Virus record (IMG/VR): IMGVR_UViG_3300024520_000571
Span: 1 to 21,074 of that record
Length of the DNA: 21,074 nt
Source: a virus
Reading direction: 5' to 3' (one strand)
Positions 3,395 through 20,250 of the stretch are shown here, piece after piece. Below the pieces are notes generated by a model that was not told the origin of the DNA, searched no databases, and saw nothing but the letters and a program-made list of their open reading frames with translations. The first letter of the stretch is position 1, and every line of letters begins with the position of its first letter. The position numbers and the translations under genes are program-made.

Positions 3395-5479
3395 CTAGTT
3401 CACCCTGTAGGCTGTCAGATTCGCATGATTCACTGTTAGCGTGGTGGTGTCCGTCTCGTTCCTCACAACCAGCTTTATTGCTTGCCCGGCAGTCACCGAC
3501 ACGATGGCCGTTCCACTGGCTGTCCTGTCAGACGTTGTGGCCGTAACCCTGAATTGCTGAGACGAACTTACTTGGGCAACATCATTCACCGACACGGCAA
3601 ATTCATAGTCCTTGTTTGCAGTTCCCGTCTGTGCAGATATGCCCCAATTCACAAGGTACACGCCTGTTGACCCGGCTATGAGCGCTCTTGACGCCGCGCC
3701 GAAAGTGAAGTCAGAAACGGTCCCTGTCGTCCAGCCACCGATTATCGAGTCCGCGTTAGCCGCCCCGAACGTGATGGAGGTTCCCGTGTCGTGCTGGTAC
3801 ATCGCACCGTATGCGAGGCCCGTTCTCACAGCCCCCCAGCCGGTGTTTCCCGCTCCCGACTCTTTGAGATAAGATATTGACCCGGCAGCGCCGTCATAAT
3901 CAGAATATCTAAAACCAACAGGGGCGGTGAAAACACCCTCGGGGCTACCGGAGCCATAAATCTCACCAACAGAGTTTGTGCCGGTATGGAGGAACGTAGC
4001 AGAAACAGATTCAAGGCTATTGCTGTGTACGTTAACCAACGTAGACGACTCAACTACAATCCCGTGCTTCTGGTTGTTCCCGCTCGCGCCGATGGATGAC
4101 ACATTACCGCTTACCTGTATATTGTCGCATGACGAAATAAACTGATATGCGTAATAGGTGTCGTCAGCGGCCAGTCCCGCCTGATGCACCGTGTTTCCGG
4201 TGATCGTGCAGTCAGTGGATGTCTTAACATAGACACCCTCAATCTGCGTATTGCTTACGGAGTTATTCGAAACACTGCACCGCGACGAGGTATCAACCCT
4301 GATGCCTTGGTTGTCCGAGTCCATTATCGTGTTGCCGGTTATTGATACGTTTGGCGCCGTGAAAACCTTGATTGCCGCACGAGAGGTTGTCTCGGATGCG
4401 TTACCAGAGAACGTGCAACCAATGATGGTGATGTCGCTCGCCGTTCCGGTGGTCCCCGTGACCAAAACCCCATCACCTTCGTTGTCCAGGAAATGACTGT
4501 TTGCGATCCTTACGTTCGTGACCGTCTCTCCGGCATTGGGCTCAATGTCTACACCGCTTTGCGCGGTGGCTACAATAGCATTGCCGTTCGTGCTGTCAAA
4601 CGTACAGCTTGAAAACACTACGTTGTCAGCGTGGGTCAGCGACGCGCCCTGCCGCCTGTTGTTAAAGAAGTAGCAGTTGTCTACGAAGACGTTGGTGCTT
4701 TGAGTACCACTGGACGTGCCGATGTACAGTCCATCGCCCCAAGCGTATGACATATTCGCACCAGAGATTTTGACATTATCAGAACCTCGAATACTGATGC
4801 ACATTCCAGACTGGCCTGTAGTTCCTGTGTGGTCTGTCCTTTCTCCGTAAAAGTTTCCACCAAGAACAGTGACGTTGGACTTAGCTTCAATTCGCAAGAT
4901 ATCGTAAGACGAATCGGTGCCGGGTATGGCTTGAAGCTTGGCACCAGAAGTGAGATCGAACGTCATGTAGTCGCCAGAAAGAATAGCCGTAGAGGCATCA
5001 ATGCTGTAATTGCCGCCGGGGAAGTAGACAACAGAGAAGCTGTCCACGTCTGCCGCCGCTATGGCTGCCTGAATTGATGCAGTATCGTCCAAGTCGTCGT
5101 CCACAACAGCCCCATAATCCGTCACGTCATACCACGGCGTATCGTAAGCCGCCCCAAACACCCGGATGTCCTCGACCGTGTAGGTCGTGATGTTCGGTCC
5201 GGAAACAACCACGTCGTAGTTGCCCTCAATGACATAGAAAGAATACCTGCCGTATCCATCGGTGGCCGTAGGATTGGTGATCTCCGGAAAAGCGTCCGTC
5301 ACGCCCGAGTACAGCGTGACGAGGTTGGTGGTGTTGGCCGAATAGACCGTGACCGTAGCGCCGCCCAGTGCGTCACCACGGACTGTTTGCACAACATCGC
5401 CATACCGATAGGTCGTGGCGCCGAACGCCGTACCAGCGACCAGCAGGGCCACCAACAGAAACAGCAGGATCTTCTTCAT
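3395..5479 (-). CDS. Tailspike with right-handed beta-helix and N-terminal signal peptide
   Basis: A protein of 694 residues. Residues 1-20 (MKKILLFLLVALLVAGTAFG) form a textbook Sec signal peptide with a likely cut before ATTYR. Residues 21-108 form a carboxypeptidase-regulatory-like sandwich (TATDGYGRYSFYV...GNYDVVVSG). A pectate-lyase-3 entry motif follows at 117-160 (YDVTDYGAVVDD, DDTASIQAAI, VVYFPGGNYSI). About 200-500 is a parallel beta-helix with repeated 'N(V)xIxGNxxxx' turns. Residues 505-553 carry the SPEGVFTAPVG...ESGAGNTGW module common in phage fibres, and about 555-694 looks like a C1q/TNF-type jelly roll for trimerisation or binding. Such spikes bind or cut surface polysaccharide. 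AGGAG lies 7 bases before the ATG. The signal peptide is odd for a virion protein assembled in the cytoplasm. Catalytic residues cannot be assigned by eye. Confidence 0.88.
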   Translation of the reverse strand: MKKILLFLLVALLVAGTAFGATTYRYGDVVQTVRGDALGGATVTVYSANTTNLVTLYSGVTDAFPEITNPTATDGYGRYSFYVIEGNYDVVVSGPNITTYTVEDIRVFGAAYDTPWYDVTDYGAVVDDDLDDTASIQAAIAAADVDSFSVVYFPGGNYSIDASTAILSGDYMTFDLTSGAKLQAIPGTDSSYDILRIEAKSNVTVLGGNFYGERTDHTGTTGQSGMCISIRGSDNVKISGANMSYAWGDGLYIGTSSGTQSTNVFVDNCYFFNNRRQGASLTHADNVVFSSCTFDSTNGNAIVATAQSGVDIEPNAGETVTNVRIANSHFLDNEGDGVLVTGTTGTASDITIIGCTFSGNASETTSRAAIKVFTAPNVSITGNTIMDSDNQGIRVDTSSRCSVSNNSVSNTQIEGVYVKTSTDCTITGNTVHQAGLAADDTYYAYQFISSCDNIQVSGNVSSIGASGNNQKHGIVVESSTLVNVHSNSLESVSATFLHTGTNSVGEIYGSGSPEGVFTAPVGFRYSDYDGAAGSISYLKESGAGNTGWGAVRTGLAYGAMYQHDTGTSITFGAANADSIIGGWTTGTVSDFTFGAASRALIAGSTGVYLVNWGISAQTGTANKDYEFAVSVNDVAQVSSSQQFRVTATTSDRTASGTAIVSVTAGQAIKLVVRNETDTTTLTVNHANLTAYRVN

Positions 5480-8760: not shown

Positions 8761-10645
8761 GTGCAGCCTCCCTTAGTTGGGCTTCAATCTGTTTCTGTTC
8801 AAACTCAGCCAACTTAGCCTCGAATTCTTCCTGAGACATGACCAGCGATCCGCTGATGTCCCCGAGGATCTCTTTCATAGTCAGCGTCCACAATTCGGCC
8901 TCGCGAACCGGGGTTGGCCTGCCAGAGGCCGCTGCGCCGTCGACCATCTGCTGCGCCATGAGCAACTGCTGTATCCTCTGGTCCTTCTCTGCGAGGTGCT
9001 TGGACCCTGCAGAATAGACGTACCAGCCCCGCCGTATGGCGGCTGGGTCGATTTTTAACTGAGACAAACTGCCGTCCTGAGTAATCGAGATAATCTGCTC
9101 ATCGGTCAAGTATTGAGCGTTCATCTCGAAAGAGATATTCATGGACTCATTCAGGAACTCATCCTCGAAATCTACGACATGGCTCCCCAGCTTGCCGGCA
9201 ATGACATTGGTGTTCCGCGCCGTGCGCGTGGCCGACTCGTCAGACCCGCCAGAGGTGTTAATCGCCCCGGTGATTCGCTCGTGACGGGCAATGGACGCAC
9301 GTTCAGCCTCGAACCCCATCGGGATACCCTGGAAGTTTTTAACGATAGGCGTGATCGTATTTGCCCGCTCGACCATGTGGTGAACCCCGGGGCCGCTGGG
9401 CTTCATCTCGCCGTCGGTCAGGTCAACCTCCACGACCTCCATTTCCGGCTGAATCACGGTGTTTACCGCGTCGATGTTCTGGTTATGGATCGCGTTGGCG
9501 GTGTCCTGTTCGTCCAGGGCCTTCTCGATTATCCCCGTGCCATACGGGTCGCCATCCAGCTTGATCAGCCGCGCATTGTTCAACTGCGGGCGCCCCGAAT
9601 ACATCGGAGACGGCTCACAGCGGATCAGGGTGTTGCCGGCGATGGTGGCAATGTAATTCTCGTAGAGTCCCTTGTTTCCGTGGGCACCACTCAATTCAAA
9701 GGTGCCGTGCATCTCTTTGACCTCGTTCTTGTCAACGCCGTGTGGCATTTCCAAACCCATAGCCATTTTGAACAGGGCCTCGGCCTCGTTGTCTGATTCG
9801 CGTTCCTCACTACTGGTTTCGTTGATCTTTTCGATGTTCTCGTACAGCCGGTATCCGTCTTCGTCTGGCTTGGCCAGCTTCTTCAGATACTCGGTGGTCC
9901 TCCAAGACCGGCCTATCCGCAGGCTGGAGAAATCGTCGTTCGGGTGCTGCTCTTGAACATAGTTGAAAATGCTCATGATCTGAAGGACCGGGCCCTGGAA
10001 GATAAGGTCAGTCTCGACAGGCGGCCGCGGGGGTTCCTCGAACTCGGGCGGTGGGGGCGGCGGCTGACCAAGCAGTGCCAACTGCTCCTTTACCTGAGTG
10101 TACTCACTCTTTATCTGCTCGAATTCAACGTGATATTCAGCTATATCCTCCAGCCACTTCTCCATCGCCTCGTTGGTCCGCAGGTAGTCGGGCGCACTCA
10201 TGGTCTTCCACGCCATCGTCCACGGGCAGTTACCGGTGATCATCATGGACTTGAGCCCAAGACTTGCGGTCTGCCGGTACTTGCCGAACATCATCTGGTA
10301 CTTGGCCAACTGCTTCATCTGCTCGGCGTATTTATCATCGCTCTGGTCGAAACCCGGGACCAGCGGCCGCAACTGCAGCCAGTCCTCAACACCGAACACC
10401 GCGTCAATGATCTGGGGTGTGACCGTCTCAACTGCATCGCCATTGAGGTTTACGAACCGATGGGAGCGATTGGCTTGCTTGGCGAACTGGACCCACTTCT
10501 TGTCATGCTCGCACAGGTAGGACAATACGCAGCGTTTCCATGTTTCCTCGCGGACAGAGCGCTCGTCCTTCATCTGCTTCCAGTTGTCACGAACAAGATC
10601 CCTGATCTCGTTCTGTGCGGCCCGTGATTTCACAACAATAGCCAT
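8675..10645 (-). CDS. Portal protein
   Basis: A protein of 656 residues from an ATG at 10645 whose A is shared with the terminase stop (TGATG), with GGAGG 6 bases upstream; a TTG one codon earlier is too close to that site. The portal ring is the DNA entry channel at one capsid vertex and docks the terminase. Evidence: size, position directly after the large terminase, and the typical podovirus portal run of VTPQIIDAVFG (75-85) near the N-terminus. A coiled segment and a Pro-rich insert (195-209, GQPPPPPP) follow, then the central DPYGTGIIEKALDEQDTANAIHNQNIDAV, the clip/stem-like helix pattern found in long portals. The C-terminus is a Gln/Ala-rich helix (EEFEAKLAEFEQKQIEAQLR) with a Gly-rich tail. 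Confidence 0.88.
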   Translation of the reverse strand: MAIVVKSRAAQNEIRDLVRDNWKQMKDERSVREETWKRCVLSYLCEHDKKWVQFAKQANRSHRFVNLNGDAVETVTPQIIDAVFGVEDWLQLRPLVPGFDQSDDKYAEQMKQLAKYQMMFGKYRQTASLGLKSMMITGNCPWTMAWKTMSAPDYLRTNEAMEKWLEDIAEYHVEFEQIKSEYTQVKEQLALLGQPPPPPPEFEEPPRPPVETDLIFQGPVLQIMSIFNYVQEQHPNDDFSSLRIGRSWRTTEYLKKLAKPDEDGYRLYENIEKINETSSEERESDNEAEALFKMAMGLEMPHGVDKNEVKEMHGTFELSGAHGNKGLYENYIATIAGNTLIRCEPSPMYSGRPQLNNARLIKLDGDPYGTGIIEKALDEQDTANAIHNQNIDAVNTVIQPEMEVVEVDLTDGEMKPSGPGVHHMVERANTITPIVKNFQGIPMGFEAERASIARHERITGAINTSGGSDESATRTARNTNVIAGKLGSHVVDFEDEFLNESMNISFEMNAQYLTDEQIISITQDGSLSQLKIDPAAIRRGWYVYSAGSKHLAEKDQRIQQLLMAQQMVDGAAASGRPTPVREAELWTLTMKEILGDISGSLVMSQEEFEAKLAEFEQKQIEAQLREAALAQQGTDQAGGGAGQDGGGGVTGTPGAA

Positions 10646-12045
10646 CAAGATCCTCCGTATGGAAGGTCGCTCGCCTGAACGTATTTATTCCTTCGGTTGC
10701 GACGCTGCTGGGCACGTCTCCGCAACTCGTCTCTTGAACGCACCCTCATCGTCAGCCCACCTCGCCACATATCGTACATGTGGTCTTCAGCGTTAGTGTT
10801 TACGTCCTCAAGGTTCTTTTTGTCAACAGGCAGCGACGGGATCGTCCTGATGAAGTGGTGGCAGTGGCGCATCACCTTGAACCGAGACTTCCCGTTGGTC
10901 ACCGAAAGATACTGGTGGCAAACCTGCTTCTGTTGGACGCGGCTGTGTGGGCCTTTAGGCCATGCCTTCCAGCCCATGTCGCGGCCGCCCAGAAGTTCGT
11001 ATACCGACCCTCCGCCGTGGCCCTTCTCTTCCATTACCTGGCCATCAACCAAGCCCACTGGGATATAGAGGTCGTTAAGTTGCTCAAAGCTCTCCATTTT
11101 CCGGCGTAGTTCTTCAGGCGGCATCTCGCAACCAACGTTGGGCTTTCCGCCCCAGCCGTACATCTCGCTTCCCAAGATGATATCGCCGTCGTACTCAAAC
11201 ATATACCCAAGCGCAAACGGCTCTTTGTATCCCCAGTCAAGCGCCCGCCAGATCTTTTTGTCCGTTGGGATCGGGTACGGATCTATGATATGGACGTCTG
11301 GGTCCCACTCGGTAAACGCAGCGCCGGCCACGATGTCCCAGCGGCCCTCGACCAATGCGGCAGCCAGCACCGGGTCAAGGTTCTCGCTAACGCGATCTGC
11401 GTAATCGGGGTCGGCCTCATCAAGGATCTTGTTGTCCGATAGCTTCGCCGGGATAAATACCCGATGGGAAACCTTCTCCACGCCCTTGCGCTTTGTTCTG
11501 ATGACCTGAGCCACCATCGGCGCTACAGGGTCAACAAAGCGAGCCTTTACCCAGTGATGCCCCAGGCCGCCCGGGTTGCTTGCGCACCTGATACGCGGCT
11601 GTACGCCCTTTGCGGAGCGCAAACGGGAGATCATGTATGTGTACTGGAAGTCAGTTGCCCACTGGGTCAACTCGTCAAAACCAACCCACTGGTAGTCCTG
11701 CCCCTGGTAATGGTCCACGTCATCATCGCGCTCAAGATGGCGGAACTGAAGCACGGCGCCATTTGGGAACCGCCACTCGTTCTTCGAGGCATTGAAGCAC
11801 CGCGGGCCGTAGATCGGCAGGAATATCTGCTTCGACCGGCGAATAACAGCGTCCATGTCATTAATGTGCCGGCGGAAGAATACACCAATCCAGCCCTCCC
11901 CGTTGGGGATACCGCGGGCATAGTCACCAAGCAGAGCGTCGGTCTTGCCGCCACCAAGGGCGCCACCATAAAGGACCTCGAACGCTGGGCAGCGCACGAA
12001 TAGTTCCTGTGGTCCTACTTGGGGTTGCCATGCAACTTGCGCCAC
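10645..12045 (-). CDS. terL: Terminase large subunit (packaging ATPase/nuclease)
   Basis: A protein of 466 residues that pumps and cuts phage DNA at the portal. N-terminal ATPase: Walker A at 27-35 (GGALGGGKT), Walker B with catalytic Glu in VGFDELTQW (FDE 123-125), and coupling motif CASNPGG (154-160). C-terminal RNase H-like nuclease: first Asp in RALDWGY (D270), second in GLVDGQV (D334), third cluster in AEDHMYD (419-425). All three acidic positions expected for metal-dependent cleavage are present. The C-terminus is strongly basic (RRRAQQRRNRRNK). Translation starts at GTG 12045, overlapping the preceding TAG by one base. Length and motif order match the Terminase_6-type large subunits of podoviruses. 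Packaging strategy cannot be read from these data. Confidence 0.95.
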   Translation of the reverse strand: MAQVAWQPQVGPQELFVRCPAFEVLYGGALGGGKTDALLGDYARGIPNGEGWIGVFFRRHINDMDAVIRRSKQIFLPIYGPRCFNASKNEWRFPNGAVLQFRHLERDDDVDHYQGQDYQWVGFDELTQWATDFQYTYMISRLRSAKGVQPRIRCASNPGGLGHHWVKARFVDPVAPMVAQVIRTKRKGVEKVSHRVFIPAKLSDNKILDEADPDYADRVSENLDPVLAAALVEGRWDIVAGAAFTEWDPDVHIIDPYPIPTDKKIWRALDWGYKEPFALGYMFEYDGDIILGSEMYGWGGKPNVGCEMPPEELRRKMESFEQLNDLYIPVGLVDGQVMEEKGHGGGSVYELLGGRDMGWKAWPKGPHSRVQQKQVCHQYLSVTNGKSRFKVMRHCHHFIRTIPSLPVDKKNLEDVNTNAEDHMYDMWRGGLTMRVRSRDELRRRAQQRRNRRNKYVQASDLPYGGS

Positions 12046-12266
12046 TACTTTTTCCTTCTTATTGCGTTGAGCCCGCCAGACAGGGCCGGGTTCTGCCTCG
12101 GTGCCGAAAACTGCTTAATGCGCTTCGGCGTCTTTCCCTTGAATGACTTTGTGCCGGTCCCTTTGCCTGGGGAAAATGGCAGTATCGACTGCGAGCCTCC
12201 CCGCAGTTTTTTCATCAGAGCCGACATCGCGGCCGACCCCTTGATCTTTACCAGATCAATTGCCAT
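12045..12266 (-). CDS. Small basic protein upstream of terminase
   Basis: A protein of 73 residues, strongly basic with many Lys/Arg in the second half (GKGTGTKSFKGKTPKRIKQ, ending NAIRRKK). It begins with a short amphipathic helix (MAIDLVKIKGSAAMSALMKKL). The ATG at 12266 lies inside the end of the membrane-protein gene (11-base overlap) with only a weak purine-rich site (GGAAAAGAG), so reinitiation is probable. Its stop overlaps the terminase GTG. A position just before the large subunit suggests a packaging or DNA-binding accessory, but the protein is short and lacks a visible helix-turn-helix. I assign no function. Confidence 0.65.
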   Translation of the reverse strand: MAIDLVKIKGSAAMSALMKKLRGGSQSILPFSPGKGTGTKSFKGKTPKRIKQFSAPRQNPALSGGLNAIRRKK

Positions 12267-12513
12267 CAGCGTTTCTCTTTTCCATTTCGGCCACAGCGGC
12301 CTCATATCCTTCTCGACGAGCCCGCCACACTTCACCAGTAGTCAGCCTCTTGTTAAAATCTTCATGTTGAGTTGCATTGGTTTCCAGTAATACCTTTTGC
12401 GATTCGGCGACGCTCTCAAAGATCACCGCCCGCTTAACCTCGCCAACAACCAACGCAGAAACTACACCAAATGCGGCGACGATGATCACCCAGTATTTTC
12501 TAATATTTTCCAT
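12256..12513 (-). CDS. One-pass membrane protein with coiled-coil tail (holin- or spanin-like?)
   Basis: A protein of 85 residues. Residues 7-24 (YWVIIVAAFGVVSALVVG) form one transmembrane helix after a short MENIRK head. The rest is hydrophilic and helical (ESVAESQKVLLETNATQHEDFNKRL, RREGYEAAVAEMEKRN). This suits a small lysis-associated or membrane-tethered protein such as a holin or inner-membrane spanin, but no endolysin gene is adjacent and the topology alone does not decide. The start is unusual: the nearest GGAGG is 20 bases upstream of the ATG, inside the end of the preceding gene, with the palindrome TTGATATCAA between. Reinitiation after that gene's TGA, 13 bases before the ATG, is the simplest reading. 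Confidence 0.65.
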   Translation of the reverse strand: MENIRKYWVIIVAAFGVVSALVVGEVKRAVIFESVAESQKVLLETNATQHEDFNKRLTTGEVWRARREGYEAAVAEMEKRNADGN

Positions 12514-12526
12514 TGTGATATTGATA

Positions 12527-13627
12527 TCAATTTCCTCCGGTTGCAGTAAGATCTGTCGGTGGGTCGGTAATGTCTCCCGGTCCTTCAACAAGGCCGCCGC
12601 CGGACTGCCCCACAACTATCGGGAACCCGGCGGACTTTACGCCATTCTCATCCACTACGAAAATGTACGCATCGGCCTCGCCATCGAAAGACCCGGTGTT
12701 CACGGTGAATGAAATTTCGTCATTGGCCCAAGCTGTCGGGATCTGCACCTCGCGGTGCGTGCACGAGTTATAGTCAACGTTGTCCCCCACTTCAACCCGC
12801 GCCAGAGAGGTGTCGATATACACATCGTCAATGTAGAAGTCGTCACGGTCAGTACCGCCATCTATCCAAGAGTTGAAGAACCCAAGGATCAGCGGATACT
12901 TGTAGGTGGCGAGATTCTGGCGGGTCATAAAGGTGGTGTTGTTGACAACCCTGTATCCGTTGTGCCACCACCTGAATGTCCCATTTGCCACTCCAATATC
13001 GCTTGAGATAAACTCAAACTGAAAGCATTGCCACACGCCGGGGGTGAAGTTGCTTCTGGAATAGAAATCTCGCTGTTGCTGCGGCGGCTCAATAAGCTCC
13101 ATGCTGTATTGCATAAGGCCGTTTCTCCAAGAAGCAAACGAGAGGTTTTCCTGCCCCCCGGCGTGCCACAACCTAAACATCTTCACGTTGGCTAAATTAG
13201 CGTCGGCACTACCAGCCGGGCCTGCGCCCCAGTTCCAGTTTGTGTCCAGCTTGAACCAATACTGGCAAAACCATGTTGCGCTTCTCGTATCGCTGGGGGC
13301 TTCAAAGGCCCCGTAGTAACCGTCACCACCACTGCCCTGAAAGTTGTGGTTGCCATTATAGGCTGAATTCCCGTGCCTCGCGTCACTGGTGTTAATTCTG
13401 GCTACGGACACACCGCCCCAGTTAGGGTGGAAACCCCCGGTCTCCATGTTGTCCCAGATGTGGGGTGGGACAGTACTTTTTGTTCCCGGGTTCGTGACAC
13501 TGATTGTGGCAGATGTGCCGTGGTCAAAGATGGAGGTGCCGAGTCCGGTTACGACCGGGGCGGCAACGGCCACGGTGGAGAGGCAAAGGAAAGCAGCGGC
13601 GATTGTCAGTTTACTCAAACGTAACAT
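12527..13627 (-). CDS. Exported jelly-roll protein (lectin/polysaccharide-lyase-like)
   Basis: A protein of 366 residues. Residues 1-23 (MLRLSKLTIAAAFLCLSTVA, then VAA) are a Sec signal peptide. Residues 24-52 look like the first strands of an IPT/TIG-like sandwich (VVTGLGTSIFDHGTSATISV). About 55-280 is a jelly roll of the LamG/concanavalin or polysaccharide-lyase type, with FQYWFKL-like strands (WFCQYWFKLDTNW), GVWQCFQFEF and the terminal DDFYIDDVYID. Residues 291-340 (EVQIPTAWANDEISFTVNTG, FVVDENGVKSAGFPIVVG) look like the remaining sandwich strands. The protein ends PPTDLTATGGN, the start of a fibronectin-III domain that is not there. GGAGGT lies 9 bases upstream; the start overlaps the deacetylase end by 17 bases. 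Probable glycan binding; a lyase active site cannot be claimed. Confidence 0.78.
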   Translation of the reverse strand: MLRLSKLTIAAAFLCLSTVAVAAPVVTGLGTSIFDHGTSATISVTNPGTKSTVPPHIWDNMETGGFHPNWGGVSVARINTSDARHGNSAYNGNHNFQGSGGDGYYGAFEAPSDTRSATWFCQYWFKLDTNWNWGAGPAGSADANLANVKMFRLWHAGGQENLSFASWRNGLMQYSMELIEPPQQQRDFYSRSNFTPGVWQCFQFEFISSDIGVANGTFRWWHNGYRVVNNTTFMTRQNLATYKYPLILGFFNSWIDGGTDRDDFYIDDVYIDTSLARVEVGDNVDYNSCTHREVQIPTAWANDEISFTVNTGSFDGEADAYIFVVDENGVKSAGFPIVVGQSGGGLVEGPGDITDPPTDLTATGGN

Positions 13628-16600
13628 AGGCCGAGAACCTCCGGTTGGTGTAGGTAGTTGGGGTCGTTAGGCTCGCGGGCGGGAACGATCCATAGTTGAG
13701 TTGGATATATTCGCCTATCAGGGTCGGCGTGTTTTCTTCGCTGTCGAACCAGACTATTGCGCTGGTTGTACTGGTCTCATCAACTGATAACATCAGGTAC
13801 AACTCTTCCCCGATTGTCGCTGCGTATGGGGTGTCGAACGTGACTACGTGATACCCGGTGAGCCCCACACTGAGCGCCGTGCCGCTGGCCTTTAGCGCGT
13901 CATCAGTCCCGTATAGCCCCATCTTTATGTTGAAGTCGTTATCCAGTGTTTCGATGTACCAGCTACCACTGACCACACTGCTAGTGCTGGGCATGACAAT
14001 CTTTCCAGCGTAGCAGTCGTCACTGTCCACGTTCCTCGAAAAATCCGTGGCGATGGTGCCGTAACCAACTGAGTCATCGTCAGCAGGGTCGAACCTCGTA
14101 AATACCGATTGGTGCAGGCTCCACCCGCTCACGTTTGGCGTACCCTCTGTATCTCGCAGGCGAAACCGTGTGAAGATCTCTACATTGGCCGCACCTGCTG
14201 GGTTTATGTCATCAAGGGCTAGTGTGGTAAAGATGGTGTCGCCAACCGTGGACGATGCGGGCTCGCTCCAAACGCCGTCACCGTAGTACCCAGAGTTGAC
14301 ATCATTGGACCACTGGAACTCAACCTGCCCAATCTCATTGATGGTCATATCAGTGAGCGTGAGTTTTATGTTACTCCCATTGGTGGTGTCCACAACAACG
14401 CCAGCGAACACGCCAGTAGTATCGGGGGGTGTGGTATCCGGGCCAGTGTCCGCAACGCTTGTATAGACCGACAACGCCTCCACAGTGGCTACCGGGGTCT
14501 CGGTTCCGGCATAATAGGCGTCAGTGTCCTTGACTGCGTGTATGCTGGTATAAACCCCTACGGTCTGATTGTAGAATATGGAATCTATGACCGCAACGGC
14601 GCTCAGTAAATCATCAGCGGTGGCCCCGAATATGCGGTACAGCATCCTGTCACGGGTTGGTGGGTTGAGCGACCCAGTGGCGTCATGATCATAGGTTGTG
14701 GCGCCACCCGCAATAGTGGTGTCTACGTCTGACCACGACCCCCCGGAGGGTTGCATTTGCATGTGGTAATGGTCCTGTCCAACCCCGGCTACCCATGTTA
14801 GGTCAATGCCGCCGACATCTGCATTGTACCCAGATTCAGCGACTCCCGAGTCATAGAGGCCGTTCCAATTCGCCGACTTCGTGGCTGTCCACGCAGCGCC
14901 CACAGTGTCTATCGCTGCATCGTGCCTACGGTGCACTATACGAACAAAAGCAGGGGTATTTAGGCTGGCATCAGCTATGTCTACTATCACATTGCCAGAA
15001 GACATCGTTGGCTGATCCAACTGAAAGCCAGTGAAGGAGACAACCGGGATCACGGTTGGGGTTGACGTTGCCTCCCCACTAAAACCAGACTCATTAGAGT
15101 CATCGTCTACGGCAGTCACCTTGTAATAGTAAGTCGCAGAATCAGCGGCGATGGAGATATCGTTGTACCATGCCGAAGGGATGTTGTCTTTATACAGGGC
15201 GTAGGCGCCAGCGTCAATCTTGCGATATACGCTGTACGAGGCAAGGTCGCCCTCGGTGTTGGCCTCCCACGACAGATACGCCGAGGTGGGCTCAGTTCCC
15301 ACGTCAAGCCCGGTAGGGGCCTCGGGGACATCAATGGCAGCCGCCTCTGCCCTGGTGGTGCGCACCCCACGTATGTGTCTCTCGTCAACACCGTTTGGGA
15401 TATACCACACCCGGTCACCCAGGCTAAATTTCAAACTATCGTTTGCCGCGTACCCGTAAGGAGTCGTGACCTCCACAGCACCAGACCGACGGTGCCGGCC
15501 AAGCTCGCTGGCCCGCATAGTGGGGATTCCGTACTCGTCCAGCACATCACAAATGACTTCTAGTTCGTCTGGGTCCACGCCCTCGTCATACCAATCGGGA
15601 CCGTAGGACTTGGTTTCATGCCAGAACAAAACAATCTCGCCACGGTCCTGCCCGCGGATCTGATTGACTAAACGGCGCATGTTGTGAGCAACGGAATCCA
15701 GGTCAAACGTGACGCTATCCTTGGCTCCAACGATTTGTTTTACCTCAACAGTCGGGGCAACGCCAAGCATATTTCTAGCCCTGCGTCCATACTGAGACGG
15801 GGCCCCTGACATGGAAGAGTCTGCCCTTGCTGGCGCGAATACACCGACTGATTGGTAGTAAAAGTCCCTCGTATACAAGTCCATCGAACCGGTGCGCATT
15901 GTCAGATAATCGTGATCAACAATGGCGTTCATAACCTCGCCGCTGTACCTGTTGTTCGGCAGGGCTATTGACTTGCCAAAATAAAGGTCGTCAGCCCTAC
16001 TGTCGCCGTCTGCAGAATCAGCAAGCGCGTAGAGCCAATCAGGGCGCGAGTCGGCTACGATGGAGTCCACGACCGCCTGTGTGATCTCCCCGGCAACCTG
16101 TTGCCAGTGAGGCAACCCCTCGGTTCCGACATCGTTCTTGTGGTGCCAAGAGTGTGTCCCAACCTCCATATCGTCATCATCACGCCACGACAGGATCTTG
16201 GCCATATCGGCCTGATAGATATTCGCAGCGTCGACATGAATCCGCGCGCCGAATATTGTGTATTTCATATTGTGGCGATCAAACACCGTAATGAACGAGT
16301 CGTTGTCGGCCGCAATGAAGTCGTCCGTTGAAAACACCGCAACGGCGTCCGAGTTGCCGGGGTACGGCGCAACGTACCGTTTGGTCAGGTACTTGATTTT
16401 AATATATGGCTGGCGGCCTATGGCGCTGCTATAGGCGTCCCAGCCAAAGATAAGTGCCTGCCTTGCTGTGTTCTCAGACTCCTGATATATCGACATGATG
16501 CCATTGTTTACGTTCCCGTTTACGGCCGACTGAACGCAGTCTGTAATATCAAACTCGATCTGCCGAGGGCGCTCTGTCCCGCTGTTGTAGGCTGGGAAGA

Positions 16601-17390
16601 AGTTGTCTTCGATGCTGCCAGACCAGTCATTGCAATCCCCTAAATCCCAGTATGGAACCGCAGACAGATCCACCGACCACGGGAACCCCTGTGAGACATC
16701 AGACCACGAGCCGCCATTGGTATCCTGCTGAAAATCCCACGACGCCTTGGCATAGTTCGGGGAGTTGGTCACCCCAACGCCGCCTTTGTTCTCATACCAA
16801 GCCGAGTCACCTGGAGCATCAAGCATCACGGAAATAACCGTGTCCACAAAGTTCAGGTAGAATGTGTTGAAATTGGAATAGTAATTCGTAGCATCAACAA
16901 TAGTAGAACGGTCCGGAATAATATCCTCATAAGGGACGTAGAAAACAGGCACCTCGCGCCCAGCGGCGGTATTCCCCACATTCTGTTTCAAGTAGTTAAC
17001 CGAGTCGATTACCTGCCGGACATCAGCGGTTGAGTAAATGAACTGGGAACCATAGAACCCGTCGGTGTCGTTTTCCTTGAGAATTGTCCACGCGAATTCT
17101 GGGATATCCTTGCCGGTGCCAAGTTCGTAAACCTCGTCGGCTGCGGCTATATCAGCCAGGAATTGTTCAGTGTATAACGAGTCGTTGTGCGTGGCCGAGG
17201 CGGGGTATGTCATGCTCGCGTTCGGCGTCAGGATGATGGTTATTTCTTCCCACCCAGCCCCGGGCTGCTGGCCGCCGGGCTGCTTTGACAAGCCAACCAT
17301 CTCGACCGGCCCTACACGAGACGGGTCCACGTTGCCCATAAGGGACAGCACGGCACAGATGATCACCAATGGCCACAGTAGCCGCTTCAT
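13611..17390 (-). CDS. Giant exported polysaccharide deacetylase (CE4/NodB-like) with glycan-binding domains
   Basis: A protein of 1259 residues. Residues 1-19 are a signal peptide (KRLLWPLVIICAVLSLMG). About 170-340 resembles a DNRLRE/CBM96-type carbohydrate-binding domain (WDFQQDTNGGSW, FDITDCVQSAVNGNVNNGIM). About 345-630 is a NodB-homology deacetylase: AVFSTDD with D356/D357, the metal motif HSWHH (H413, H417), ALPNNRYSGEV as the motif-3 region, LTMRTG, and VLFWHE with H591. About 687-779 is a fibronectin-III domain (SAYLSWEANTEGDLASYSVYRK). Two or more FN3-like sandwiches follow, then a C-terminal sandwich (1105-1259). CE4 enzymes remove N- or O-acetyl groups from polysaccharides using a metal ion. 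The start overlaps the preceding stop (TAATG). It may act on the virion or as a secreted enzyme; the signal peptide favours export. Confidence 0.85.
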   Translation of the reverse strand: MKRLLWPLVIICAVLSLMGNVDPSRVGPVEMVGLSKQPGGQQPGAGWEEITIILTPNASMTYPASATHNDSLYTEQFLADIAAADEVYELGTGKDIPEFAWTILKENDTDGFYGSQFIYSTADVRQVIDSVNYLKQNVGNTAAGREVPVFYVPYEDIIPDRSTIVDATNYYSNFNTFYLNFVDTVISVMLDAPGDSAWYENKGGVGVTNSPNYAKASWDFQQDTNGGSWSDVSQGFPWSVDLSAVPYWDLGDCNDWSGSIEDNFFPAYNSGTERPRQIEFDITDCVQSAVNGNVNNGIMSIYQESENTARQALIFGWDAYSSAIGRQPYIKIKYLTKRYVAPYPGNSDAVAVFSTDDFIAADNDSFITVFDRHNMKYTIFGARIHVDAANIYQADMAKILSWRDDDDMEVGTHSWHHKNDVGTEGLPHWQQVAGEITQAVVDSIVADSRPDWLYALADSADGDSRADDLYFGKSIALPNNRYSGEVMNAIVDHDYLTMRTGSMDLYTRDFYYQSVGVFAPARADSSMSGAPSQYGRRARNMLGVAPTVEVKQIVGAKDSVTFDLDSVAHNMRRLVNQIRGQDRGEIVLFWHETKSYGPDWYDEGVDPDELEVICDVLDEYGIPTMRASELGRHRRSGAVEVTTPYGYAANDSLKFSLGDRVWYIPNGVDERHIRGVRTTRAEAAAIDVPEAPTGLDVGTEPTSAYLSWEANTEGDLASYSVYRKIDAGAYALYKDNIPSAWYNDISIAADSATYYYKVTAVDDDSNESGFSGEATSTPTVIPVVSFTGFQLDQPTMSSGNVIVDIADASLNTPAFVRIVHRRHDAAIDTVGAAWTATKSANWNGLYDSGVAESGYNADVGGIDLTWVAGVGQDHYHMQMQPSGGSWSDVDTTIAGGATTYDHDATGSLNPPTRDRMLYRIFGATADDLLSAVAVIDSIFYNQTVGVYTSIHAVKDTDAYYAGTETPVATVEALSVYTSVADTGPDTTPPDTTGVFAGVVVDTTNGSNIKLTLTDMTINEIGQVEFQWSNDVNSGYYGDGVWSEPASSTVGDTIFTTLALDDINPAGAANVEIFTRFRLRDTEGTPNVSGWSLHQSVFTRFDPADDDSVGYGTIATDFSRNVDSDDCYAGKIVMPSTSSVVSGSWYIETLDNDFNIKMGLYGTDDALKASGTALSVGLTGYHVVTFDTPYAATIGEELYLMLSVDETSTTSAIVWFDSEENTPTLIGEYIQLNYGSFPPASLTTPTTYTNRRFSAYVTFE

Positions 17391-17869
17391 TACCGCACCG
17401 AGTCGTAGGCTTCAATCACTATCGTATCGGTCGCGGCCGGCGCGAGCGCCCAATAAAAATTGCCGTAGAACGTCTCTCCGGCCGCGGAAACAGGCACCGC
17501 CCCAAAGCTGTCACCAACCCCCTGATCGAACAAGGTGTCCTTCTGGGCTGCTGACAACGCCGTGGTGATCAAATCAGAATTGGTGTCGTCATCAAGCCCG
17601 ACGCCGACAGTCCACTTCGTCTGGATCATTCGCAAGCGGAAATCCGTGCCAGATGATCCAAGGTGGGATCTGACGATGATTAGATCAGGAATAACCCCAA
17701 ACAGGGCCGGCAGGTCCAGTAGTTGGTTGGCGCCCGTATCGGGGACCCACATATAGGTGCCCTTGTGGACGTAGCCAAACGGCTCGGCCTGAACGTCCTT
17801 GACGACAGCGAACGCCGCCAGGATGAATAGAACCAGCATGATCAGGGCGAATTTGTGTTCGGTTTTCAT
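17390..17869 (-). CDS. Exported protein of unknown function
   Basis: A protein of 159 residues. Residues 1-28 form a clear Sec signal peptide with a long hydrophobic core (FALIMLVLFILAAFAVV) and a probable cut after VQA. The mature part begins EPFGYVHKGTYMWVPDTGANQ and is rich in alternating hydrophobic residues and Asp/Thr, suggesting a small beta-sandwich (IPDLIIVRSHLG, FRLRMIQTKWTVGVGLDDD, ATDTIVIEAYDS). It is coupled to both neighbours: ATGA with the zinc-ribbon gene upstream and TAATG with the deacetylase downstream. This tight linkage suggests it works with the deacetylase, for example as a binding partner or virion anchor. No family was recognised. Confidence 0.75.
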   Translation of the reverse strand: MKTEHKFALIMLVLFILAAFAVVKDVQAEPFGYVHKGTYMWVPDTGANQLLDLPALFGVIPDLIIVRSHLGSSGTDFRLRMIQTKWTVGVGLDDDTNSDLITTALSAAQKDTLFDQGVGDSFGAVPVSAAGETFYGNFYWALAPAATDTIVIEAYDSVR

Positions 17870-18186
17870 TTCTTTCCGCCCTTCTTGGTCGACTTCTTTG
17901 TTCCACGTAGAGCGCTCTTGACCTTGCCCATCTTGCCAGGCTTGGCCTTGGCGGGCTCCCGCGGGATCTCCGCCACCCTTGCCTCAACAGGGGGATCATC
18001 TGGCTCAACCGGCGCTAGCGGCACTACAGCGGCCTTGAACTTCGCAGAAGCAGCCAGCGTCTCGGTCTTCTCCTTCGTCACCACATAGCCGCACGAACGG
18101 CAATAGTACGGACCCTTCGGGTCACCGGGCCGCAGTACGGTCAACTTCTCGCCAGTGTCGCAAAACTGATTCGGACACGAAATCAC
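17866..18186 (-). CDS. Zinc-ribbon protein with basic Lys-rich tail
   Basis: A protein of 106 residues starting at GTG 18186, chosen because GGAGGT lies 6 bases upstream and no ATG is nearby. Two Cys pairs, CPNQFC (residues 4-9) and CRSCG (about 29-33), are spaced to make a four-Cys zinc ribbon of about 30 residues. A Pro/Val-rich linker (VVPLAPVEPDDPPVEARVAEIP) follows, then a very basic tail (KAKPGKMGKVKSALRGTKKS, KKGGKK). Nucleic-acid binding or a protein-interaction scaffold is plausible from the zinc ribbon and tail. It is embedded in the exported-protein cluster but has no signal peptide itself. I do not know its function. Confidence 0.75.
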   Translation of the reverse strand: MISCPNQFCDTGEKLTVLRPGDPKGPYYCRSCGYVVTKEKTETLAASAKFKAAVVPLAPVEPDDPPVEARVAEIPREPAKAKPGKMGKVKSALRGTKKSTKKGGKK

Positions 18187-18201
18187 GACTCAACCTCCAA
18201 T

Positions 18202-18603
18202 TTAAACCTTCGACTCGTCCAATTTGTGGTCGCCGCACCAGTCGTGCGGAAACACAACAGGGAAGCCTAGCTTCTGGCCCGCGGCCGGCGAGTGACGGCG
18301 ACAGCGCCCCAGCTTGGCCTCGCCATCGGGCCCCTGGTTCGAAATCGCCACCTTGGTGACGAACCACATACACGTCCGGCACTGCATACCGGTGGAGCGG
18401 TGGGCCCAAGGGTCGCCCATGAGCGGCGCAGCCAAGTGCTTGCCCTCAACAGAGTCAACAGGACAATCAAGCGTGTGAGAGAACCCGTTCGGGGCGCCGC
18501 AGGTGCAGTTAGAACATGAATCCTCATGCAACACGCCATCAGGTCCGTTCGGGCACTGAGGACAATGATAATCGTTCAAACAGCCACATTCCGTACAAGG
18601 CAT
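18202..18603 (-). CDS. Cys-rich putative metal-binding protein
   Basis: A protein of 133 residues with 13 cysteines, from an ATG at 18603 with GGGAGG 6 bases upstream; an in-frame ATG 27 bases earlier lacks a site. The N-terminal part has CTECGCLNDYHCPQC (two tight Cys pairs) and CSNCTC. The C-terminal part has QCRTCMWF...GRCRRHSP...FPVVFPHDWCGDHK, a pattern seen in small phage proteins where four Cys probably hold zinc or an iron-sulfur cluster. The two halves look like separate metal sites. The gene is preceded by a 16-bp palindrome ending 32 bases before the ATG, the same as the one before the neighbouring exported protein. The molecular role is unknown. Confidence 0.75.
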   Translation of the reverse strand: MPCTECGCLNDYHCPQCPNGPDGVLHEDSCSNCTCGAPNGFSHTLDCPVDSVEGKHLAAPLMGDPWAHRSTGMQCRTCMWFVTKVAISNQGPDGEAKLGRCRRHSPAAGQKLGFPVVFPHDWCGDHKLDESKV

Positions 18604-18635
18604 CAGGCACCTCCCAGTTAAGCTATCCACCTACT

Positions 18636-18651
18636 GTGTCCAAATGGACAC
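18636..18651. promoter_or_regulatory. 16-bp palindromic operator, copy 2
   Basis: Perfect inverted repeat GTGTCCA-AA-TGGACAC in the 57-base gap between the 170-residue exported protein and the Cys-rich gene. It matches the copy at 19200-19215 except for the two central bases. Arms of 7 bp with a 2-bp centre suit a homodimeric DNA-binding protein. TTGACG lies just upstream in the minus direction (18656-18661) and could be part of a promoter that this site overlaps. Confidence 0.65.
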
Positions 18652-18660
18652 TACGTCAAA

Positions 18661-19173
18661 TCAGTAACCAAGATCCAACTGAACAGAGTCGCCGCCGGCC
18701 TCGGCAATGTAAATCGAGTCCGGATACGATACAATGGCCCAACAGGGGTACTCCAGGCCGGGGGTGCCGTTACCAGACATATATGTGGTAGTATCAGCTA
18801 CGTCAAACCACGTCCGGGGCGTCTCACCGTTCGCAAATGCACGATAAGTGAAAGGAACCCGGGAATACAACAGCGCCGTCTTGACAGGACGCTTGATCGT
18901 CAGAACCTCGCCAGTATAATTCGCGCCAACAGGAACCTGCTTCGGGGGATGCCACGCGGAAATCTCAGCCGCGGCCAAGCCGTCAAAATCAAGGCCGGCG
19001 CCGGCATTGGCCTGGGAGGCCGTAAACCACAGCGTATCAAGCGTCACACCGGCCCCAACGACCGACTGGTGGAACGTGCAGTCGTCAAACACAGCAGACC
19101 GGTCAGGACCACCAAGAGCCACCACACCCACAAAAAGAGCCAACACCAAGAAGAACGAACCAACAAAACGCAT
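18661..19173 (-). CDS. Exported protein of unknown function, first gene of the accessory cluster
   Basis: A protein of 170 residues from an ATG at 19173 with GGGAGGT 7 bases upstream; the longer in-frame version would run through the control region and is rejected. Residues 1-20 (MRFVGSFFLVLALFVGVVAL) are a Sec signal peptide, likely cut before GPDRS. The mature protein has a beta-rich appearance (VLTIKRPVKTALLYSRVPFTY, YPCWAIVSYPDSIYIAEAGG) and two Cys that could form a disulfide outside the cytoplasm. It resembles the small exported protein at 17390-17869 in size and composition only. It is the promoter-proximal gene of the minus-strand cluster and is controlled from the palindrome-bearing region upstream. 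No family recognised. Confidence 0.78.
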   Translation of the reverse strand: MRFVGSFFLVLALFVGVVALGGPDRSAVFDDCTFHQSVVGAGVTLDTLWFTASQANAGAGLDFDGLAAAEISAWHPPKQVPVGANYTGEVLTIKRPVKTALLYSRVPFTYRAFANGETPRTWFDVADTTTYMSGNGTPGLEYPCWAIVSYPDSIYIAEAGGDSVQLDLGY

Positions 19174-19199: not shown

Positions 19200-19215
19200 G
19201 TGTCCAACTGGACAC
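19200..19215. promoter_or_regulatory. 16-bp palindromic operator, copy 1
   Basis: Perfect inverted repeat GTGTCCA-AC-TGGACAC, ending 26 bases before the start codon of the 170-residue exported protein. It begins 4 bases after a candidate -10 box (TATGAT) in the minus direction, so it would cover the transcription start. Repressor binding there is the simplest reading. Confidence 0.7.
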
Positions 19216-19881: not shown

Positions 19882-20250
19882 CTACCCGTCACCATTGGGC
19901 CCCCTGCTTGGGTCGCGTGCTGGTAGGGCCAGTTCGGCGCCCTGGCTCATGAGCTTCAGGGCCTGGGCCTGCCAATCGGTCATGTCTTCGCACGGTACAG
20001 GGATCAGCACCACCGCCGGGGCTTTGGTCGTCTGGTCGTTGAACCCGTGAGCCTTGGCCTCGAGTTCGTGCAACACCTTGGTCGACCGGGCGAGGTGGCC
20101 GATGTCGCTGGCGTCCAGTCCGCCCTCCTTCACCCTGCCGGCAATCGCCTGCTGTAGCTTGTCAAGGTCGCGCACCTGCCGGCGGACCACCTGCCCTACC
20201 TTGTTCTGCTTCGCTGTCGCCCTGGTCAACTCCTGCTTCTTGCCTGCCAT
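19882..20250 (-). CDS. Helical protein, possible terminase small subunit
   Basis: A protein of 122 residues starting at ATG 20250, set by AGGAGGTG 6 bases upstream; a longer in-frame version would run through the operator region and has no site. The N-terminal half is basic and helical (AKQNKVGQVVRRQVRDLDKLQQAI). It is followed by DASDIGHLARSTKVLHELEAKAHGFND, then a strand PAVVLIPVP and MTDWQAQALKLM. A helical DNA-binding half, an 'ELE.KA.G' helix and a 'VV.IPVP' oligomerisation strand resemble small terminase subunits, which bind phage DNA and hand it to the large subunit. Against this, it lies about 8 kb from the large subunit gene. The gene is secure; the function is a hypothesis. Confidence 0.7.
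   Translation of the reverse strand: MAGKKQELTRATAKQNKVGQVVRRQVRDLDKLQQAIAGRVKEGGLDASDIGHLARSTKVLHELEAKAHGFNDQTTKAPAVVLIPVPCEDMTDWQAQALKLMSQGAELALPARDPSRGPNGDG

Follow-up and report, generated by a model that had tools for sequence, protein, structure and literature searches.

Genes at the locus and in its relatives

The window analysed here, a 21-kb fragment (21,074 nucleotides) of an IMG/VR virus record, carries its genes on the minus strand. In the order of transcription, these comprise a small-terminase-like gene, a cluster coding for predicted exported proteins, the gene of the terminase large subunit (TerL), the portal, scaffold and major capsid protein genes, small head genes, a tailspike gene and tail genes (Table 1). 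The capsid protein has matches in phages in whose records it is termed N4-gp56 family or podoviral, and by sequence the window phage is a member of a clade of uncultured podoviruses with an N4-gp56-type capsid protein, sharing 54–62% identity in that protein. A genome scan for the host with the capsid protein returned only Clostridia-type contigs at about 30% identity, matches too distant for a host to be named. Neither RNA families nor tRNAs were found in the window. A sequence-only reading of this DNA had placed seven adjacent genes between a control region and the terminase; all seven are present on the minus strand and adjoin the TerL side, but their other border is the small-terminase-like gene rather than a control region.

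Table 1. Positions of the features discussed, in window numbering
Feature	Coordinates	Strand	Basis
Small-terminase-like gene, 122 aa, opening the conserved order	19882..20250	-	named by position; homologues in G001 and G003
First copy of palindrome TGTCCANNTGGACA, ahead of the 170-aa gene	19201..19214		exact repeat
170-aa putatively exported protein, predicted signal MRFVGSFFLVLALFVGVVALG	18661..19173	-	signal scorer and homology
Second copy of palindrome TGTCCANNTGGACA, in the gap separating the 170-aa gene from the 142-aa gene	18637..18650		exact repeat
142-aa Cys-rich protein, no signal	18202..18630	-	ORF and scorer
106-aa zinc-ribbon-like protein, Lys-rich C-terminus, no signal	17866..18186	-	Cys pattern by eye
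159-aa small putatively exported protein, predicted cleavage VQA↓EP	17390..17869	-	scorer and homology
1259-aa putatively exported modular polysaccharide deacetylase with FN3-like region	13611..17390	-	scorer, active-site pattern and homology
366-aa putatively exported lectin/lyase-like protein, predicted cleavage AVA↓AP	12527..13627	-	scorer and homology
One-pass protein (85 aa), N-terminal membrane segment, charged tail	12256..12513	-	ORF to 12615; ATG start likelier
Basic protein of 72 aa, directly preceding TerL; about 50% conservation within the clade	12045..12263	-	
TerL (context)	10645..12045	-	family match
694-aa tailspike (beta helix), predicted signal MKKILLFLLVALLVAGTAFG↓ATTYR, conserved N-terminal domain	3395..5479	-	scorer and homology

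The cluster is readable in four relatives, all uncultured: G001 (IMGVR 3300009506_000114), G003 (3300024518_003049), G005 (IMGVR 3300037657_000018) and L050 (3300049479_000205); L003, L038, L046 and L051 are further fragments of the clade. The TerL proteins of G001 and G003 are 53–54% identical to that of the window. Because it has a 127-bp terminal direct repeat, G005 is probably complete, and its large protein of 1914 aa can be read across the contig ends. The same clade member encodes a sigma-70-type factor (36306–37163; L105:2307–3164), which may drive late genes. The conserved order starts with the small terminase, (the 170-aa protein), the zinc ribbon, the small exported protein and the large exported protein, and continues with (an extra protein), a small membrane or coiled-coil protein, the basic 72-aa protein and TerL; losses occur.

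The 170-aa protein has a homologue in G003 (b177, 34%), and the two Cys residues conserved in this family would fit an oxidising compartment. The two exact copies of the palindrome flank its gene (as many matches arose in 0 of 100 shuffles), and an exact copy is absent from the relatives read; the element is possibly operator- or hairpin-like, or a cassette boundary. For the 142-aa gene, the ATG at 18603 is the likelier start, giving 133 aa, and a Cys-rich protein similar by eye is encoded in the same position in G005 (42910–43347). The 106-aa protein has positional counterparts in G001, G003 and L050, whereas the 159-aa protein has a homologue in G001 (E 2e-11) and positional counterparts in G003, L050 and G005. 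Profile comparisons of the small exported proteins with the head protein encoded after the major capsid protein, and with the 170-aa family, were negative for kinship. The labels "jelly-roll" and "beta-rich" earlier given to cluster proteins found no confirmation in structure, since the AlphaFold models of the 366-aa and 159-aa proteins were of low confidence (mean pLDDT 45 and 51, respectively).

Export-type N-termini and their conservation

N-termini were evaluated with our own rule-based scorer of n, h and c regions, following the criteria for Sec and signal peptidase I (a positive n-region, a hydrophobic core of 7–15 residues and small residues at -3 and -1), with a threshold of 6.5 and a calibration on eight textbook signal peptides that scored 6.9–9.0. 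The 170-aa (9.6), 159-aa (11.2), 1259-aa (8.3) and 366-aa (8.4) proteins and the tailspike (11.7) all fell within or above this positive-control range, and none of the five has a further hydrophobic or membrane segment. The remaining window genes stayed below the threshold, with the exception of the one-pass 85-aa protein. Shine-Dalgarno sequences or, for the 1259-aa gene, TAATG stop-start coupling support the starts that include the signals. Thus, the Sec signals that the sequence-only reading had assigned to the four cluster proteins and to the tailspike are borne out, and all five have Sec-type export N-termini, with export and cleavage as predictions.

These N-termini are conserved. Across the five genomes, window included, an export-type N-terminus was found on the small protein, the large protein and the tailspike in 15 of 15 cases, as well as on both known members of the 170-aa family; altogether, 18 of 18 clade proteins pass the scorer. 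The related contigs, in which that reading had advised looking for the same cluster, keep both the cluster and its signals, that of the tailspike being present in all four. Downstream of TerL, 61 genes were called in the five genomes, among which only the five tailspikes score (0 of the other 56). That chance hydrophobic N-termini had been picked out by a reader and by a home-made, rule-based scorer, which also scores the one-pass protein, is scarcely credible in view of this 15/15 conservation and of the controls: shuffled versions of the five proteins exceeded 6.5 in 0.1–1.6% of trials, and 8 of 209 genes from six other phage or prophage records passed, lysis genes, host genes and mis-calls among them.

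Good small-X-small sites are present in most of the clade proteins (VQA↓EP, ARA↓AE, AVA↓AP, ALA↓DG, AMA↓ST), and for the large protein the predicted site is ambiguous in three genomes (window, L050 and G005). Some large-protein signals hold a Cys, but by eye it lacks a preceding Gly, Ala or Ser, and lipoprotein signals were rejected.

Tailspike and 366-aa protein compared with their relatives

The body of the tailspike matches the PHROG tail spike family (E 2e-33) and Pfam Beta_helix (E 1e-24). Its N-terminal domain, about 90 aa long, has homologues at the front of tail fibres or spikes from six cultured phages. In a search with an 88-aa query, based on L050 and hand-edited towards the clade consensus, this domain matched Oceanospirillum phage GJ44 (E 3e-7), Klebsiella phage KA2-1 (E 3e-4), several Serratia phages and, more weakly, others, whereas a search with the window's own spike N-terminus gave nothing at E 0.01. 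The cultured phages sharing the domain are GJ44, KA2-1, the Serratia phages MyoSmar and MTx, Marinomonas phage P12026 and Escherichia phage ECO1230-10, and in them it is often followed by a pectin-lyase-type beta helix. Unlike the window's spike, their fibres and spikes have no signal peptide: in the six relatives read, a few residues at most precede the domain, and with an in-frame stop codon no more than about 16 bases upstream there is no other start from which a signal could be added. The five clade members, by contrast, have about 20 hydrophobic residues ahead of the domain, and removal of these residues gives the same N-terminus as that of the signal-less spikes.

The 366-aa protein offers a similar comparison within the clade. 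It corresponds to the C-terminal part of the signal-bearing 1914-aa protein of G005 (E 6e-24), and as a stand-alone gene product it bears a signal of its own. The local alignment between the two, computed on uncut sequences and unguided, begins at residue 24, and cleavage is predicted after residue 22. Its match to PF14099 (E 0.02) is under the cut-off, and its family has no sequence match in the PDB.

These two contrasts, with the signal-less spike relatives and with the G005 counterpart of the 366-aa protein, agree with export signals that are cleavable and maintained by selection, and make both the chance reading and membrane anchoring awkward. Anchoring, raised by the sequence-only reading as well, would mean that the hydrophobic N-termini stay uncleaved and keep the spike and the enzymes on the inner membrane while virions assemble or the cell lyses. 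The ambiguous cleavage sites of the large protein in three genomes and the real one-pass protein encoded next to the set speak for it; nevertheless, we consider it unlikely, because most signals have good small-X-small sites and predicted cleavage would restore the N-terminus of the signal-less spikes, and the homology of the 366-aa protein starts at the predicted site. More improbable still is a structural role in the virion, in which these N-termini stay in the cytoplasm and only secondarily resemble signal peptides. In its favour are the grouping of spike and head genes and the cytoplasmic assembly that is normal for tailed virions. However, the same type of N-terminus occurs on proteins with unrelated mature parts, it is added to the free-standing 366-aa protein, and the signal-less spikes with the same domain do without such a segment.

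The spike itself poses a difficulty for export. Its mature N-terminal domain is 59% identical in the clade, the remainder of the protein varies and is nearly absent in G005 (303 aa), and in each of the five genomes the gene lies with those for head and tail. This suggests that the domain looks like a virion anchor, which is hard to reconcile with export. Both could hold if the spike were exported, folded and trimerised in the periplasm, and attached to virions by its N-terminal domain only once lysis had brought the compartments together. The conserved domain followed by a variable remainder, the usual pattern of a virion anchor, and the position of the gene favour such late docking, but the literature searched contains no precedent and nothing in the sequence speaks of docking after lysis, so we regard it as doubtful.

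Putative polysaccharide-active proteins, lysis-like neighbours and proposed role

The large protein is composed of an N-terminal domain and a NodB-type deacetylase, followed by FN3 and lectin- or hydrolase-like parts. The catalytic Asp-Asp, the H-x3-H metal site and the distal catalytic His are invariant in four genomes, and G003 has a BNR-like large protein in place of the deacetylase. Scores against Pfam PF01522 remained below the curated cut-off of 23.1 bits (21.3 bits, E 3e-4, for the window; 22.8 bits, E 9e-5, for L050), and we therefore use "NodB-type" for the active-site pattern and not for confirmed membership of CE4. The L050 homologue aligns with the 1259-aa protein over 716 aa (E 1e-86), and FN3 domains follow the deacetylase in L046 and, going by similarity, also in G005 and the window. 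G001 has an FN3-like piece after the deacetylase in a different frame (L002:5434–5721), suggesting a split or frameshifted large gene. The G005 protein also has a part that we interpret as hydrolase-like, with no family match and no PDB sequence match, and a lectin-like C-terminus. As judged from these modules, the domain layout is that of secreted polysaccharide-active proteins. Deacetylase-plus-hydrolase proteins of the PgaB type are secreted and act on biofilm polysaccharides, and the G005 protein may likewise join a NodB-type deacetylase with a hydrolase-like domain, a likeness that we offer as a lead only. Scans of viral contigs and named phages found no kin of the 1259-aa and 366-aa proteins, except that the FN3 region weakly matches two Streptomyces phages.

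The one-pass protein, whose ORF spans 12256–12615, had been counted as a fifth member of the exported group. That it is a one-pass membrane protein stands, but from its position it more probably belongs with the lysis genes, as a holin/spanin-like protein, than with the exported set. Its counterparts gave weak matches only, to an Rz-like spanin in G001 (E 6e-5) and to a holin in G003 (E 0.003), and the window's own protein gave none. None of the cluster proteins matched an endolysin in Pfam or PHROG. In phage Y3, a lysozyme, an inner-membrane subunit and a holin are encoded directly upstream of the terminase genes. From the holin/spanin-like neighbours and this layout, we infer that the cluster is likely expressed late, together with lysis genes. 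In the probably complete genome of G005, no endolysin was recognised among the proteins scanned with Pfam.

Taken together, the best explanation, to which we give about an even chance (0.5), is that the cluster and the spike form a late, Sec-exported, polysaccharide-modifying set. The export-type N-termini in five of five genomes, the intact deacetylase residues in four of five, the FN3 and lectin- or hydrolase-like modules, and a spike signal absent from the signal-less relatives all fit the secreted polysaccharide-modifying set proposed earlier, while cleavage, timing, substrate, purpose and the spike's route to the virion are what we infer. According to this explanation, the deacetylase, its small partner, the lectin/lyase-like protein and the tailspike would cross the inner membrane by means of their signals, which signal peptidase would most likely remove there. 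The deacetylase and lectin set would probably alter a surface or matrix polysaccharide on and around the infected cell and, released at lysis, could aid the exit of progeny. The spike might either dock on virions once outside the cytoplasm or act as a free enzyme. Late docking is the stronger form of this explanation; at its fullest, it would describe a tailed phage with an extracytoplasmic last assembly step, in which a Sec-exported spike joins the virion at or after lysis and co-exported enzymes open the polysaccharide, a scenario that we put forward very tentatively.

The assembly of tailed phages is regarded as a wholly cytoplasmic process. A clade with cleavable-looking signals on its spike would thus be either a departure from cytoplasmic assembly or a case of a structural protein turned secreted enzyme, and the signal-less homologues make the question of an exported spike directly testable. 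The clade would also be an additional source of modular secreted polysaccharide-active proteins. What appears new here is the predicted Sec signals on tailspikes of tailed phages, for which the open-access literature searched contained no report (weak evidence of absence); exported endolysins and a phage deacetylase were already known. The exported endolysins, among them Lys44 of Oenococcus phage fOg44, the SAR endolysins and LysA of mycobacteriophage Ms6, likewise pass the host Sec system during infection (PMC6116005). They target peptidoglycan, whereas the window's predicted cargo is a tailspike together with polysaccharide-active proteins, and its cluster showed no endolysin. For the polysaccharide deacetylase of Campylobacter phage vB_CcoM-IBB_35, the authors propose a help in progeny release or infection, in a part of the published text that makes no mention of a signal peptide (PMC3322345). 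That phage is of a different type, and its deacetylase is neither modular nor clustered as in the window.

Signal peptides were also observed on other phage proteins. Three related viral contigs encode, among structural genes, a 279-aa protein that begins with a signal peptide and ends in a PEP-CTERM-like tail, VPEPGSLALLGSGLIGFGLIRRKRS (L022:17842–18681, plus strand; L008:9640–10479; L009:17474–18313), which is possibly sorted by a host exosortase. Another phage, found through its TerL, encodes a 256-aa protein with a strong signal peptide among head and connector genes (L004:10022–10792, plus strand).
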